Origin: Alphaproteobacteria bacterium
GTDB lineage: Bacteria; Pseudomonadota; Alphaproteobacteria; Micavibrionales; UBA2020
NCBI GenBank assembly: GCA_021413445.1
Contig: JAIOQI010000003.1
Coordinates: forward strand, 1-48,303
DNA length: 48,303 nucleotides
Reading direction: 5' to 3'
The position numbers and the translations under genes are program-made. The notes beneath the pieces are model-generated. The model had not been told where the DNA came from, did no database searches, and saw nothing but the letters and a program-made list of their open reading frames with translations. Of this stretch, positions 36,501-44,989 are shown in pieces (the stretch's first letter is position 1; the number at the start of each line of letters is the position of its first letter).

Positions 36501-36902
36501 TTAAAAGACCCGGCAAAGCAACTCGCCGCCAACGTTCGCTTCGAGCGCTTCTTTATCAGAAAGCACACCGCGCGGCGTGGACAGGATTGAAATGCCGAGA
36601 CCGTTATAAACACGGGGAACTTCCGAGATCTTCGAATAAACACGACGTCCCGGCTTGGAGATACGGGCGATTTCCTTGATGACCGGCTGGCCTTCGAGGT
36701 ATTTCAGCTCGACGCTCAGCTCAGCCGCACCGTTGTCTTTTTTCGTGACGCTGTAATCGCGGATATAGCCCTCGCGTTTCAGCACATCCAGCACGTTAAT
36801 GCGGTGCTTTGACGCGGGACTCGAAACAGCGGACAGCCTCGCTGCCTGGCCGTTCCGGATACGTGTCAGTAAATCGCCAAGAGGATCATTCAGCATAACC
36901 AT
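36501..36902 (-). CDS. rpsH: 30S ribosomal protein S8
   Basis: S8 binds the central domain of 16S rRNA and, in E. coli, represses the spc operon. The protein contains LNDPLGDLLTRIRNGQAA at the N-terminus and GLGISILSTPRGVLSDKEA at the C-terminus, so it is complete. I start at ATG 36902 (MVMLNDPLG); ATG 36896 is equally possible. No Shine-Dalgarno is visible upstream (the minus strand reads AGTGAATATACAT), and the genes that should precede it, rpsN and rplE, are missing: the foreign carbamoyltransferase reading frame begins within a few bases. Confidence 0.96.
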   Translation of the reverse strand: MVMLNDPLGDLLTRIRNGQAARLSAVSSPASKHRINVLDVLKREGYIRDYSVTKKDNGAAELSVELKYLEGQPVIKEIARISKPGRRVYSKISEVPRVYNGLGISILSTPRGVLSDKEALEANVGGELLCRVF

Positions 36903-36911
36903 ATGTATATT
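36903..36911. other. Probable chimeric junction
   Basis: To the left, rpsH is cut off just outside its start codon, without ribosome-binding site or rpsN. To the right, a carbamoyltransferase open reading frame begins in mid-domain. Two unrelated genes being truncated at the same point, with different repeat families and translation-start signals on either side, is the pattern of an assembly join or a very recent rearrangement. Confidence 0.8.
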
Positions 36912-38098
36912 CACTCGGCGGCATGTACGGGGCCGTCACGGAATTTCTCGGCTTTGAAATGCTCGATGGCGAATTCAAAGTCATGGGCATGGCGCCGTTT
37001 GGCGACGCCAAACGATTCGACGTTTCCAAGCTGATTGAATGGAACGCCGAAGGATACAAGATCAACACGAATCTGGTGAACTGTATCGGCGCGCGGCGCT
37101 ACAAACGCGACGGCAAAGGCACGTATTTCTCTCCCAAGCTGATTGATATGTGGGGCCCGGTCCGCGAAGGCGATGAAATCGACGAACCCTACGTTCACGT
37201 CGCCGCGGCCGTGCAGAAGACACTCGAAGAAGTTGTGCTGGCCCTGACCAAGCACTATCTCGGCGACTACATCAAGCAGACGCAACGGCTTTGCTACGCG
37301 GGTGGTGTGGCACTCAATGTCAAATGCAACCAGCGCCTGATCGATGCCATCAAACCGCACGGGGAACTCTTTGTGCAGCCGGCTGCCAGCGACGCCGGCA
37401 CTGCGCTCGGGGCTGCCACGTATGCCGCGAGCGAACTGGGCGAAAAGATTCAGCCGATGGTCCACGCGTACCTAGGGCCGGAATATACGGCGGACGAGAT
37501 TGAAGCAGCCTTGAAGAAGCGCGGAGTCCGCTATGAACGGTGCGCCTCCATCACCGATACCGCCAGCGACCTGCTCGCGAGGGGCGAAGTGGTCGCGTGG
37601 TTCCAGGGACGGATGGAATTCGGTCCCCGTTCGCTCGGCAACCGCAGCATCCTCGGCAACCCCGCCAGCCGAGGTGTGGCCGACATGATCAATGCGCAGA
37701 TCAAATACCGTGAACGCTGGCGTCCGTTCTGCCCGTCGATGCTCGACCGTGTGGCGCCGGAAATCCTGCAGACACAGCATCCGTCGCCGTACATGACCTT
37801 CACGTTTGATGTCGCCGAGAGCTGGAAAGCGAAGATCCCCGAAGTCGTGCACGAGGACGGCACCGCGCGTCCGCAGATTGTCACGCCCCTTAGCAACGGG
37901 CGCTACTACGAATTGATCAGCAAATTCGCCGCGAAGACTGGCATTCCGGTTTTGCTGAACACATCACTCAACCGCCGTGGCGAACCGATGGTCTGTTCAC
38001 CGGAAGACGCGTTGAATATGTTTTACGGGAGTGACCTGCAGAATCTCGCGATGGGTGATTTTCTGGTCAAGAAGTCCGGCGAGACGCCACAAGCTTAA
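36908..38098 (+). CDS. Carbamoyltransferase (NodU/CmcH type), N-terminus missing
   Basis: Enzymes of this family transfer a carbamoyl group from carbamoyl phosphate to sugars or antibiotics via an adenylate. About 395 residues remain of a usual ~570-610. The visible part starts inside the Kae1-like domain (SLGGMYGAVTEFLGF, then EFKVMGMAPFGD), continues through LCYAGGVALNVKCNQRLID, and includes the C-terminal domain (GRMEFGPRSLGNRSILGNP, RWRPFCPSMLD, LLNTSLNRRGEPMVCSPEDA). An in-frame stop at 36896-36898, in the adjacent rpsH sequence, closes the frame upstream, so roughly the first 190 residues are absent. The first in-frame ATG (36923) is internal, not a true start. The substrate cannot be predicted. 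Confidence 0.92.
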   Translation, partial: YSLGGMYGAVTEFLGFEMLDGEFKVMGMAPFGDAKRFDVSKLIEWNAEGYKINTNLVNCIGARRYKRDGKGTYFSPKLIDMWGPVREGDEIDEPYVHVAAAVQKTLEEVVLALTKHYLGDYIKQTQRLCYAGGVALNVKCNQRLIDAIKPHGELFVQPAASDAGTALGAATYAASELGEKIQPMVHAYLGPEYTADEIEAALKKRGVRYERCASITDTASDLLARGEVVAWFQGRMEFGPRSLGNRSILGNPASRGVADMINAQIKYRERWRPFCPSMLDRVAPEILQTQHPSPYMTFTFDVAESWKAKIPEVVHEDGTARPQIVTPLSNGRYYELISKFAAKTGIPVLLNTSLNRRGEPMVCSPEDALNMFYGSDLQNLAMGDFLVKKSGETPQA

Positions 38099-39643: not shown

Positions 39644-40594
39644 TCAATTCCGATGCGCCTTGTGGCATACGGTGCAGGATTCCGTCACGCGCTTAAAATC
39701 TTTATCCGCAGCCATCACATCGATGGGAGGATTTTTCAACCGTTGGTGAAAGGCAGTCATGGCTTGTTCTGATTCCATCAGTTTGCTCCGGAAATCCTTT
39801 CCCCTTTCATCGGTCACAGGATGACGCAGCAATTCCTTGAGTAGCTCCTGCAACATCAATGCTTCATGGGCGGGATCGAGATCAGGATTGGCAGCGGGTG
39901 CTTTGTACCCGGCCTTTTTGATCATCTTCAAGTGCTCCATGTATTCGTCGATCTCAACCATGACATCGGCCAGATGCGAGACCTGAGACTTTTCGGGGAA
40001 ATTGTCCGGAAGCAATTTCAACTCTGCAGCCGATGGTGGCTGAAAATACTCCACACTCTTGTAGAGCCCCGTATAGTTCGGAGCCGTCCCCGCCAGTTTC
40101 AACCACGCGACCGCCTGGTCCGGTGTCCAACCTTCCCCGGCCATGCAGATCACTGCGGCGGCGGCCGGTCCGCGATGCAGGCCATGATGACAATGGATGA
40201 AAACCGGACCTGGCAGCGTTTCCGCCGCTTTCACCAGCCGGACTGCTTGATTCGTCGGGACGCCGTCGTACCCGATCGGCAAATGCACGTATTTCATCCC
40301 AAATTTGCGCGCCGTTTCCACATCGGGCTTGGCGCCATCGACGGTGATGATGGTCTTGATCCCCCGCGCCTTGAGTTCCGCAAAGCCTTCTTCGCCTTCC
40401 GGAGCCGACCCGGAATAGAGCCGCGGCGTCACTTGATAGAAATTCTCGATTCCTTTGCCTTGGAGAGTGTGAATGGAAGCAGGCACAGCTTTCGCAGGAG
40501 CCTCTTCGGCGTGTCCAATCCCCAGAACACAAATGACAGTGACTAGCAGGAAGAGCCTGAACAAAGCAGACATTATCTTTAGCAAGGATGTCAC
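39644..40594 (-). CDS. Secreted tyrosine-phosphatase-like domain fused to a C-terminal cytochrome c motif
   Basis: The 316-residue protein has a signal peptide (~1-29, MTSLLKIMSALFRLFLLVTV, cleavage after GHA). Residues ~45-185 form a dual-specificity/tyrosine phosphatase-like domain with the P-loop HCHHGLHRG (Cys135, Arg141) and a possible general-acid Asp in the upstream loop LPIGYDGVPT. Residues ~205-316 are helical and end in CTVCH (307-311), a haem c attachment motif close to the C-terminus, as in class II cytochromes (c' and c556) with a four-helix bundle. The GTG start at 40594 is chosen because it gives the full signal peptide and sits 6 nt after a TATAAA box; ATG at 40573 is the alternative. 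Export would let haem be attached in the periplasm. Confidence 0.82.
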   Translation of the reverse strand: MTSLLKIMSALFRLFLLVTVICVLGIGHAEEAPAKAVPASIHTLQGKGIENFYQVTPRLYSGSAPEGEEGFAELKARGIKTIITVDGAKPDVETARKFGMKYVHLPIGYDGVPTNQAVRLVKAAETLPGPVFIHCHHGLHRGPAAAAVICMAGEGWTPDQAVAWLKLAGTAPNYTGLYKSVEYFQPPSAAELKLLPDNFPEKSQVSHLADVMVEIDEYMEHLKMIKKAGYKAPAANPDLDPAHEALMLQELLKELLRHPVTDERGKDFRSKLMESEQAMTAFHQRLKNPPIDVMAADKDFKRVTESCTVCHKAHRN

Positions 40595-40747: not shown

Positions 40748-40770
40748 CGCAGGGTAAAGTCTGCGACTAC
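40748..40770. repeat. Palindromic repeat, copy 2, overlapping the lyase stop codon
   Basis: CGCAGGGTAAAGTCTGCG followed by ACTAC is a diverged copy of the hairpin at 40693. The TAG stop of the polysaccharide lyase gene (minus strand) is formed by the ACTAC part, so the repeat has supplied the end of that gene. Confidence 0.65.
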
Positions 40771-43085
40771 GGGGAATGGCGGATCTTGCGCACGCGATAT
40801 TTCAACAGTGTGCCATTGGCTGATGTGGAAAGAATGTTCGCCGGGAAAGGCTGGCCGGCATACGTCTTGAGCGTGACATTCTCCATCTCCAATCCCTCCG
40901 GCAAAAAGATTTCCGTCGGTGATTGTTCGGCACGCGCGAAACGGCGCGGGGCTCTGATTTCCAATTGCGCGTGATCCGCGTCGTCGGACGGAAGCCAGCG
41001 GGCGATGCTGCCCCATTGATGTTGTTCGGCACCCCAGTAGGAGGAGCCGATCTTTTTGCGCCAGTCGCCGGGGAAACGAACTTCGCCCCCTACGGCACCC
41101 TTCTGCACCGTTACCCGGTGATGCGTGTCTTCCTGGAGTATCTGCAGGCTGGCGAAGTCTGGAACGGCGCCCGGCGAAATAATCGCGCCGTAACGACCAT
41201 GGCGCGGACCGACACCGTGATTGACGATCAAATACACAAACCGGCGTTCGAACATGGTGCGGTAGTGTTTCCGGTGTTGCAGTTCCATCGGGTCGGCCCG
41301 TTGCGGATCATTCAAATCCGCATGACAACCGCGCCGTGTTTCCACCACCAGTTGCGCATCGGTCAGCAGATGAATGCCGACATTGCGCAGAAAGAGCGTG
41401 TCGCCCGCTTTCACTTCGTGAATGCCGTCCTCCCGGATATCCAATGTGGTGCCGTTCCGCGAATAGGCGCTGCCCTCAATTACCGGCGCAAAGAACAGGG
41501 TCGTGAAAACCGGATCGGCGGCATCGCACCGGATCAGTGTCCCCAGCATCACCAACGCTTGCGGCGTCACGAAGACGCTCTTATTCGCCCGCAAGGTGTC
41601 TTGTCCTGCGGGAGCCAGCACATATTGAAGCCCCATCACGGCGAGTTCGTCACCGGCAATGCCGCTGGAAAACGTGCTCTGGCCATAGCCTTCCGGAGGC
41701 GGTTCGATCGCGTCGCACCGTGTCACGCCCATGATCCGCCGCCAGTTCATCGTCGGAATAGTGGTGAAATCGTATTCGCGTCCGTCGCTCATCAGCGCGA
41801 TGGAAAATTCGGCAATGGAAGAACTATAGACGTGACCACCCAGCATGGATTTCCACGTGGAGGTGCGGGCCGAGCTCATTCGCACGGCGGCGAACCAGTC
41901 GGGCTGGCGCGCGAGGAGGTATTCGCTCTCGGGATAATAGCGGATACCTCCCAGCCGTTTCGGATCGCCTTGGATCGGCTTGGGTACGCTGCCCAGCATC
42001 AAGCCGGTCACCCAATCGAATTCCGTCAGCGATAACGGCCGACCCTCTTGATCGACGCTCCGGAGATAATCCGCCACGGCGGCGCGGAACACTTCCTTGT
42101 CTTGCGGCGGAAGGTCCGTCATCAAGCCCAGCATCAGCATGCCGAGAAATTCGCGACCATAAATGGCGCCCGGCGATGAAATGCCGCGATCCGCGGAGAA
42201 CGGGGCGACGCGGCCGCGCCAGACGTTGCGGGCGAAGAATTCGCGGATTGTCCCGACGTGAAGTTCACGGAGATTATCGGAGATTTGCCAGGGGGTGCCC
42301 TGGGTCAAATAGAGCCATTCGGCCTGGGTGCTGAGCGCATGGTGGCCGTACCCGACATTGATGCCGTGGCCGTGGAAATGATAGCTCCAGTCCGCCTGCA
42401 ATCCCTCGCTGCCCGTGGCCCGCCCCATGGCGATCGGGATTTGACTCATCACGGTCTTGATCCATTGCGGATCGTTCAATACCAAGCCACGCAGGAGACC
42501 GGTCGTCAGGACTGCCAGATTGTTCGACCCGCTGGTGATCGGCGGACGGGTGATGCCGTTTTCGCGGTCCATCGCGAACGTTTTGCAGGGCATATGCTGG
42601 ACGTCTTCGATGATCAACTGGCGCAAGTCTTCCGGCACGGCATCACCCAGCACCAACAGGTGGTCGAGCAGCGAACCGGCATACATGATGTCCCAGTAAT
42701 ACCAACTGCCGTCGCGGGGCTGATCGGGCCGGACGTATTTCTCGCCGAACCGCAGGCCGGCGATGATCCGTTCCAGCACTTCGGGTTTCTGGTAGTGGCG
42801 TGAGAACGGGCACCGCCACATTCGCGCGACTTTGTAGACTTCGCCAAAATAGTGGGTGCCGTAGGTGAACAACGAATGGGGCAACGGTTCGCCGTGGGCA
42901 TTGCCATGCCCGGGATTGCCCGGGGCCCAGATTTGGCGCGCCAGGATGGTGTCCACGAGACTGTCGAGACCGCTCACGGCGTGGCTGACAAATTCCCGCG
43001 TGGCCGGCGGAGCGCCCCCTCCGGTGGCCAGGAAGACAAAGCGTTCGCGGATGGTTTGCAGCGCCGACTGTTCAGTGGTGTTCAT
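40767..43085 (-). CDS. Polysaccharide lyase family 8-like protein
   Basis: PL8 enzymes cleave uronic-acid polysaccharides (hyaluronan, chondroitin, xanthan) by beta-elimination. The 772-residue protein has an all-alpha toroid N-terminal domain (~1-330) with probable active-site residues Asn188/189 in TSGSNNLAVLT and a His/Tyr pair in DWSYHFHGHGINVGYGHHAL (probably His238 and Tyr246; the spacing is one residue shorter than in characterised lyases). The rest is a beta-sandwich region with GGHVYSSSIAEFSIALMSDG and NWRRIMGVTR, as in the supersandwich domain. No signal peptide is visible, which is odd for a lyase normally secreted. The start is uncertain as there is no Shine-Dalgarno and no nearby -10 box. 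Confidence 0.8.
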   Translation of the reverse strand: MNTTEQSALQTIRERFVFLATGGGAPPATREFVSHAVSGLDSLVDTILARQIWAPGNPGHGNAHGEPLPHSLFTYGTHYFGEVYKVARMWRCPFSRHYQKPEVLERIIAGLRFGEKYVRPDQPRDGSWYYWDIMYAGSLLDHLLVLGDAVPEDLRQLIIEDVQHMPCKTFAMDRENGITRPPITSGSNNLAVLTTGLLRGLVLNDPQWIKTVMSQIPIAMGRATGSEGLQADWSYHFHGHGINVGYGHHALSTQAEWLYLTQGTPWQISDNLRELHVGTIREFFARNVWRGRVAPFSADRGISSPGAIYGREFLGMLMLGLMTDLPPQDKEVFRAAVADYLRSVDQEGRPLSLTEFDWVTGLMLGSVPKPIQGDPKRLGGIRYYPESEYLLARQPDWFAAVRMSSARTSTWKSMLGGHVYSSSIAEFSIALMSDGREYDFTTIPTMNWRRIMGVTRCDAIEPPPEGYGQSTFSSGIAGDELAVMGLQYVLAPAGQDTLRANKSVFVTPQALVMLGTLIRCDAADPVFTTLFFAPVIEGSAYSRNGTTLDIREDGIHEVKAGDTLFLRNVGIHLLTDAQLVVETRRGCHADLNDPQRADPMELQHRKHYRTMFERRFVYLIVNHGVGPRHGRYGAIISPGAVPDFASLQILQEDTHHRVTVQKGAVGGEVRFPGDWRKKIGSSYWGAEQHQWGSIARWLPSDDADHAQLEIRAPRRFARAEQSPTEIFLPEGLEMENVTLKTYAGQPFPANILSTSANGTLLKYRVRKIRHSP

Positions 43086-44110: not shown

Positions 44111-44989
44111 TTATTCCACGTATTCCGTTCCCGAACCGAACTCCATCCCCTGCTTGCGGCATTGGCGCGGGGACTGGCCGAAATGGCGGCGGAAGACGCG
44201 GGAAAAATAAAACGGATCGCGGTATCCAAGTTCTTCCGCAATTTCGGCCACTGTCTTGCTTGTGCCCGATAGAAATTGTCGAGCTGCTTGCATCCGGCGT
44301 TCGTTCAGCCAACGCATGGGCGTCACGCCGGTTTGCTGTTTGAAGACGCGGTCAAAATGCACCGGGTGCCAGTTCACCGCGCGCGCCCATTGTTCCAATG
44401 ACAGCGGCGAACCCAGGCGCGCGTTGGCCCAGGTTTGCGCGATCAAAATCCGGTCCACGGTCCCCTCATCCATCATGACTTGCGCGGACAATGGTGCGGC
44501 GGTTTCCTCCAGAATCAACGCCAGGAATTGCAGGACCGCGCCGGTGATTTTCCATTCACGCACGGCGACGGGGCTTTGCAAGGCCTGCAGAATCGCGTCG
44601 AACCGCTTGCGATACTGCACCGGATCTTTGATCCGGTAACGGCGGGCAAATTTTCGTTGCAGCAAAATATTGGGAATTACTCCCTGCTCCACTGCGAGCG
44701 AAACGCTGAGCGCCGTGATGGGCCGGGCCGGATCATGTCCCATACTGAGGATGTCGCCACCCCGCGAAACTTTCAGGTCCCCCTGCCGCAAGGCCGTGCG
44801 GATGCCGTTGACGGTGGCCCAGCAGCCGTTTTTTTCGAGAAAGAAAAAACTGATCAATGCGGCGGGGATTTTTTCCGGCGGGATGCTCCATTTCGGCGCG
44901 CATTTGAAGCGGCCGCAGAACATCAGGCGGACGCCGAGCGATGTTTCAAACAGGAACCGGCGTGGTATGACGGGAACCGGGCGACCCAT
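44111..44989 (-). CDS. AraC-family transcriptional regulator
   Basis: The 292-residue protein has a C-terminal AraC DNA-binding domain with two helix-turn-helix units (~190-290): first PLSLEQWARAVNWHPVHFDRVFK with QQTGVTPMRWLNERRM, then KTVAEIAEELGYRDPFYFSR with VFRRHFGQSPRQ. The N-terminal part (~1-160) is probably the sensing domain and contains the basic segment RRFLFETSLGVRLMFCGRFKC. Its ligand and targets are unknown; the nearby lyase and PhyH genes suggest carbohydrate or small-molecule metabolism, which is inference. A leaderless-type promoter precedes it. Confidence 0.92.
   Translation of the reverse strand: MGRPVPVIPRRFLFETSLGVRLMFCGRFKCAPKWSIPPEKIPAALISFFFLEKNGCWATVNGIRTALRQGDLKVSRGGDILSMGHDPARPITALSVSLAVEQGVIPNILLQRKFARRYRIKDPVQYRKRFDAILQALQSPVAVREWKITGAVLQFLALILEETAAPLSAQVMMDEGTVDRILIAQTWANARLGSPLSLEQWARAVNWHPVHFDRVFKQQTGVTPMRWLNERRMQAARQFLSGTSKTVAEIAEELGYRDPFYFSRVFRRHFGQSPRQCRKQGMEFGSGTEYVE

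Follow-up and report, generated by a model that had tools for sequence, protein, structure and literature searches.

A conserved family of predicted exported proteins joining a cysteine phosphatase fold to a class II cytochrome c-like domain

Introduction

The stretch of DNA analysed here (the window: 48,303 nucleotides of contig JAIOQI010000003.1, assembly GCA_021413445.1, binned as an alphaproteobacterium) encodes a protein in which a signal peptide and a phosphatase-type HC-x5-R loop are followed, close to the C-terminus, by a CXXCH haem c motif. This arrangement raises two questions: whether the haem motif is more than a chance occurrence and, if so, what a haem would do on a phosphatase. 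The original prediction proposed either a redox-controlled enzyme or an electron-transfer protein reusing the phosphatase fold.

Results

The gene and its product

The open reading frame, its translation and inspection of the sequence bore out the four elements first noticed, namely the reading frame itself, the signal peptide, the HCHHGLHRG loop and the CTVCH motif. The span initially given to the gene, 39644–40594, corresponds to a GTG start (316 aa), but the ATG at 40573 yields a cleaner signal peptide and a protein of 309 aa, encoded at 39644–40573 on the minus strand, as are all the features of the gene given below. This reading of the whole gene as an exported fusion of a dual-specificity phosphatase (DSP)-fold domain with a class II cytochrome c domain draws on the reading frame, its translation and full-length homologues. 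Residues are numbered throughout from the ATG, and the argument is the same with either start. By inspection, the predicted signal peptide covers residues 1–22 (40508–40573), with cleavage between GHA and EE in the context MSALFRLFLLVTVICVLGIGHA-EE. A lipobox-like motif replaces the plain signal peptide in about one third of the homologues (43 of 133), and either element is predicted to put the protein outside the cytoplasm.

Homologues and conservation

Two annotated homologues, both plasmid-borne, are full length and contain both motifs: one from Aquisphaera giovannonii (50% identity), annotated as "dual specificity protein phosphatase", and one from Planctomyces sp. SH-PL62 (46% identity), annotated as "hypothetical protein". 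The haem half is named in neither annotation. When 84,980 species genomes were scanned with an alignment of these two sequences, 138 relatives emerged; the best 80 of the 138, which were retained, came from Planctomycetota, Verrucomicrobiota and Hydrogenedentota, together with a few doubtful bins. In a separate search, independent of the peptide patterns chosen for retrieval, 137 of 392 sampled Planctomycetota genomes matched at E ≤ 1e-20, nearly all over the full length. Sixty of these 137 matches were retrieved, mostly the weaker ones, from the more divergent half of a genome survey made without selection: 54 carry a CXXCH near the C-terminus, three are cut by contig ends and three are shorter TpbA-like proteins. 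The latter (L093, L094 and L096, all from Planctomycetota) have the P-loops HCKNGKHRS, HCHAGRHRA and HCAHGKDRT and no cytochrome domain, and may possibly be relatives that predate the fusion. Two other sequences, labelled Chitinophaga pinensis (L051) and Vicinamibacteraceae (L081), were placed inside Planctomycetota branches, and their source MAGs are probably mislabelled or misbinned.

Conservation was scored in 133 full-length sequences, the majority from Planctomycetota, including 54 from the divergent survey sample. Most of the first 79 had been retrieved via a pair of peptide patterns taken from the phosphatase half, so that conservation within those patterns is partly selected; the P-loop, Met205 and the haem sites lay outside both patterns. 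The positions invariant in 133/133 sequences were P58, D79, H97, P99, Y102, H127, C128, G131, R134, Y167, G169, M205, C300, C303, H304 and R308. Homologues with both domains, which the original prediction had proposed to look for, thus exist, and every full-length member keeps the phosphatase Cys and Arg and the haem Cys pair, His and Arg. A chance CXXCH was rejected because the motif is conserved across these full-length homologues, and the conservation indicates that the fusion of a phosphatase with a haem c domain is a real family.

The cytochrome half

An AlphaFold2 model built on a 76-sequence alignment resolved two domains with high confidence (mean pLDDT 93.9, pTM 0.86). The C-terminal domain (residues 200–309; 39647–39976) forms four helices (200–220, 234–250, 259–280 and 286–307), with the CXXCH close to the end of the last one, the placement for which the original prediction had proposed a check; the cysteine pair lies on a helix of the bundle, and none of the 133 full-length homologues lacks the CXXCH or the catalytic cysteine. 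This is the architecture of class II cytochromes c, a four-helix bundle with a C-terminal CXXCH on its last helix. The CTVCH motif (residues 300–304, helix D; 39662–39676) is followed by the tail K305-A306-H307-R308-N309, in which Arg308 (39650–39652) completes the class II signature C-x-x-C-H-x-x-x-R; C300, C303, H304 and R308 are each present in 133/133 sequences.

In profile comparisons, the Cytochrome C' model PF01322 matched the window protein over residues 258–308 with E 0.006 and 18 bits, below its gathering score of 26.5. At E ≤ 0.01 this model was detected in 59 of the 76 members, and L017, L069, L006 and L044 scored above the gathering score. In the PDB, a profile of the C-terminal domain picked up cytochromes c' together with engineered cytochrome cb562, at a best E of about 2e-5; the latter match covered nearly the whole domain. 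A fold comparison of the full model returned phosphatase-domain matches only, and the fold of the C-terminal domain is assigned here from the model helices and the profile matches. The domain therefore resembles class II cytochromes c (c', c556) and b562/cb562 in its four-helix bundle, in the signature on the last helix and in a distal-side residue on the first; unlike these small stand-alone cytochromes, it is the C-terminal half of a predicted exported phosphatase.

Within this domain, Met205 (39959–39961) and His304 are the sole invariant candidate haem ligands. Met205 occupies position six of helix A, the first of the bundle, and His304 lies three residues before the end of helix D; in an up-down-up-down bundle these helix ends are predicted to be adjacent, at the same end of the bundle. 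The two residues are 99 positions apart, and the ligands of cytochrome b562, Met7 and His102, are 95 apart. Because of this similar spacing and the adjacent helix ends, Met205 is the likely sixth ligand, although the cb562 profile alignment puts Met7 three residues, or about one helix turn, after Met205. The invariance of the haem site and of Met205 argues strongly for a covalently attached haem c, probably with His304 and Met205 as axial ligands, which would be a redox haem of the c556/b562 type and not one with an open site for gas. The bin that carries the window contains two strong Cytochrom_C_asm (CcmC/CcmF-type) matches and is therefore probably able to mature cytochromes c.

The presence of cytochromes c' among the best matches of this domain could also fit a gas or redox sensor, in which a five-coordinate haem binding NO or CO would gate the phosphatase as the output of a one-protein switch. 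Some cytochromes c' have an unligated distal Met, but a Met205 invariant in 133 sequences favours a filled sixth site, and we consider a sensor of this kind quite improbable. A precedent for haem-based sensing outside the cytoplasm is the NO-sensor family DUF3365/Cache, in which a c-type haem motif lies in an exported sensor fold (sCache_heme; PMC12889525), and a DUF3365 gene is found near one homologue. Like the present family, sCache_heme proteins (DUF3365/Tll0287) join an exported non-cytochrome module to a c-type haem motif, but their fold is different, and there a haem-motif fragment is inserted in the sensor fold, whereas here a whole cytochrome domain is fused.

The phosphatase half

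Residues 35–190 (40004–40471) form a PTP/DSP-fold domain in the model. The closest structure was TpbA (4r0s; Z 18.1 over residues 28–188), the periplasmic dual-specificity phosphatase PA3885 of Pseudomonas aeruginosa, followed by DUSP23 (17.4), Siw14 (16.8) and AtPFA-DSP1 (16.5), all of them matching the phosphatase domain only, and TpbA chains were also the best PDB sequence matches of both the single protein and the profile. The best Pfam matches, over residues 51–160, were the DSP-type domains PF22785, PF22784 and PF22741 (Tc-R-P, PTP-SAK and PTP-NADK), PF22785 alone scoring above its cut-off. These models are defined in other domain contexts, and no toxin, NAD-kinase or SAK partner occurs here; although Tc-R-P stands in Pfam for a polymorphic toxin system phosphatase, there was no sign of a toxin or phage context. 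Model, fold comparison, profiles and conservation together support a phosphatase-fold domain and a class II cytochrome c-like domain within one protein bearing export signals.

The loop HCHHGLHRG (residues 127–135; 40169–40195) had been described as intact, which holds for the HC-x5-R motif of the Cys-based PTP superfamily: H127, C128, G131 and R134 are kept in 133/133 homologues, H133 in 131 and H130 in 130. The site is not that of a canonical protein phosphatase, however. Asp103 (40265–40267), which aligns with the D105 region of TpbA and occupies the DSP general-acid position, is not conserved (D in 73, N in 16, K in 15 and S in 12 of the 133), and the Ser/Thr that follows the Arg of canonical DSPs is also not kept, position 135 being G in 83, S in 49 and A in one. 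The DSP model PF00782 scored below its cut-off. The position occupied by Gly135 (40169–40171) in most members is reminiscent of PRL phosphatases, which have Ala after the P-loop Arg and form a long-lived phosphocysteine; by analogy, slow turnover might be expected.

TpbA shares with the family an exported DSP fold and the HC-x5-R loop. It acts outside the cytoplasm (PMC2691606) and has Asp105 as general acid and an HCKHGNNR-T loop (PMC4409338), whereas in the present family the Asp position is variable and Gly or Ser follows the Arg. TpbA has no haem domain; the conserved extra cytochrome domain and the absence of a recurring adjacent partner set the family apart from this exported stand-alone DSP, which acts on TpbB. 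The second resemblance is to Siw14 and AtPFA-DSP1, atypical plant and fungal DSPs (PFA-DSPs) that are inositol pyrophosphatases; they are eukaryotic enzymes without a haem domain. With Z scores of 16–17, they share the P-loop HCxxGKHR with most family members, together with a near-invariant P-loop His and a general acid that is not conserved in the family. The window protein differs in having Leu for the Lys and the family in having Gly/Ser for Thr157, and PF03162, the PFA-DSP model, stayed below its cut-off, the HCKRGKHRT-type loop being shared only in part. In AtPFA-DSP1, the P-loop His155, equivalent to His133 of the window protein, takes part in catalysis, and the reaction proceeds without a protein general acid (PMC9038691). 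A variable acid position combined with a near-invariant P-loop His recalls that enzyme and leads us to favour a cysteine phosphatase whose substrates have good leaving groups.

The lack of a conserved general acid and P-loop Ser/Thr could alternatively mean that the phosphatase fold is vestigial and serves an electron-transfer cytochrome for docking or binding. Pseudophosphatases normally lose the Cys or the Arg, but Cys128, Arg134, His127 and Gly131, like further residues of the pocket, stay unchanged even in divergent members, which makes such a role highly improbable; the proposal that an electron-transfer protein merely reuses the fold is likewise disfavoured, since the whole P-loop is invariant. 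The invariant Cys/Arg P-loop argues for catalysis at this site.

Catalysis could take another form. As in PTP-fold or rhodanese-fold sulfur transferases and in arsenate reductases, the P-loop Cys might perform redox chemistry instead of hydrolysing phosphate. A tetrahedral oxyanion or a sulfur compound (thiosulfate, persulfide or an arsenate-like species) would then bind in the PTP pocket, with the haem c taking or delivering electrons. The DUF442/BLH relatives of the fold include sulfur transferases, the DUF442 structure 3gxh was among the top fold matches, and an invariant redox cofactor site fused to a domain without a conserved general-acid Asp or P-loop Ser/Thr would suit such chemistry, as would the invariant H97, Y102, Y167 and D79, which probably line the active-site pocket. 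The loop HCxxG(K/R)HR is nevertheless the phosphatase pattern of PFA-DSPs, PF04273 and TIGR01244 (DUF442/BLH sulfur transferase) fell below their cut-offs, the NCBIfam sulfur-transferase models far below, and sulfur or arsenic genes do not recur among the adjacent genes. We therefore regard sulfur or oxyanion redox chemistry as unlikely.

Gene neighbourhood

Neither blast clustering of the neighbours nor a comparison of 91 adjacent ORFs with Pfam revealed a recurrent operon partner: no Pfam family recurred more than four times among the 91, and no conserved neighbour among the genes adjacent to the homologues named a substrate. The orientation of neighbours around about 60 homologues was random (co-directional in 31/59 and 30/60). 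In the window, the neighbouring gene at 40767–43085 (minus strand) is polysaccharide lyase family 8-like, and an AraC-type regulator is encoded at 44111–44989. On the SH-PL62 plasmid (L004, 7981–12909), the DUF3365 gene, of the haem-Cache type, is about 1 kb away from the homologue, and a cluster of cytochrome c oxidase genes that includes SCO is about 2 kb away.

Host of the window gene

The tree places the window protein among Pedosphaera-like Verrucomicrobiota (61% identity, SH-aLRT 96), yet no homologue was found in the 141 other genomes searched from the bin's own order, seven of the same genus included. Ribosomal protein L6 (35951–36484) shows 78–89% identity within the bin's genus versus 46–47% in Pedosphaera genomes. 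DNA synteny with three same-genus genomes ends at 36,897, the S8 start codon. Adjoining this break is a carbamoyltransferase (36923–38098) that lacks its N-terminus and was identified by eye from its motifs. Between 36,923 and 44,989, the window had no match in 17 other genomes of the family except in the tRNA region, and tetranucleotide correlation was 0.79–0.84 within the left part versus 0.56–0.60 between the right and left parts. Ribosomal L5 had no match in the bin, which would fit a broken ribosomal operon, but this empty result is uninformative by itself. The contig may be chimeric at 36,897–36,917 or carry a large integrated foreign segment, a chimera being the more likely. Since the window looks chimeric or rearranged there, the host organism of the gene is uncertain; what the gene encodes is unaffected.

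Discussion

These results lead us to favour, tentatively, an exported cysteine phosphatase that carries a covalent haem c and whose activity is coupled to the supply of electrons. With moderate confidence, Cys128 would attack a phosphate that the P-loop and Arg134 keep in place. Since His133 is conserved whereas neither the general-acid Asp nor the Ser/Thr following Arg134 is, the reaction would probably need no Asp acid and suit a substrate with a good leaving group, for example a phosphoanhydride or a polyanionic phosphate, in the manner of PFA-DSP/Siw14 enzymes. A weaker proposal is that the haem ties this activity to the extracytoplasmic redox state, either by accepting or donating an electron upon oxidation of Cys128 or its adduct, or through a domain interface that changes with redox state.

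Crosstalk between the two sites is the least secure step of this proposal and is suggested by their strict co-retention and by the confident two-domain model. The domains might instead work independently, the cytochrome serving only for folding, dimerisation or tethering to a membrane or protein and the phosphatase being indifferent to the haem state. In favour of this reading, the alignment shows no further invariant cysteine, beyond Cys128 and the haem Cys pair, that could serve in a disulphide switch. The rest of the C-terminal domain is divergent (mean column identity 41%), yet the haem ligands and Arg308 are kept without exception and none of the 133 aligned full-length members has lost the haem site, so that we hold independent domains to be rather unlikely. 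Beyond the tentatively favoured redox-coupled phosphatase, it is conceivable, if doubtful, that these proteins form an exported haem enzyme class, common in Planctomycetota, in which the PTP-type Cys and the class II haem c would act as one catalytic unit, directly coupling phosphate-ester or anhydride cleavage, or oxyanion chemistry, to one-electron transfer.

Each half belongs to a known superfamily, and the strictly conserved combination is an apparently undescribed family: a search of the open-access literature for cytochrome or haem and phosphatase with Planctomycetes or periplasm returned no paper on such a fusion. Cysteine phosphatases are readily inactivated by oxidation, and their role in the oxidising envelope is little understood; an envelope phosphatase in which a haem is always built in would offer a convenient model of dephosphorylation coupled to redox state. 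In Planctomycetota, whose envelope signalling is largely uncharacterised and where about one in three sampled genomes has a match, the fusion may link dephosphorylation to electron transfer outside the cytoplasm.
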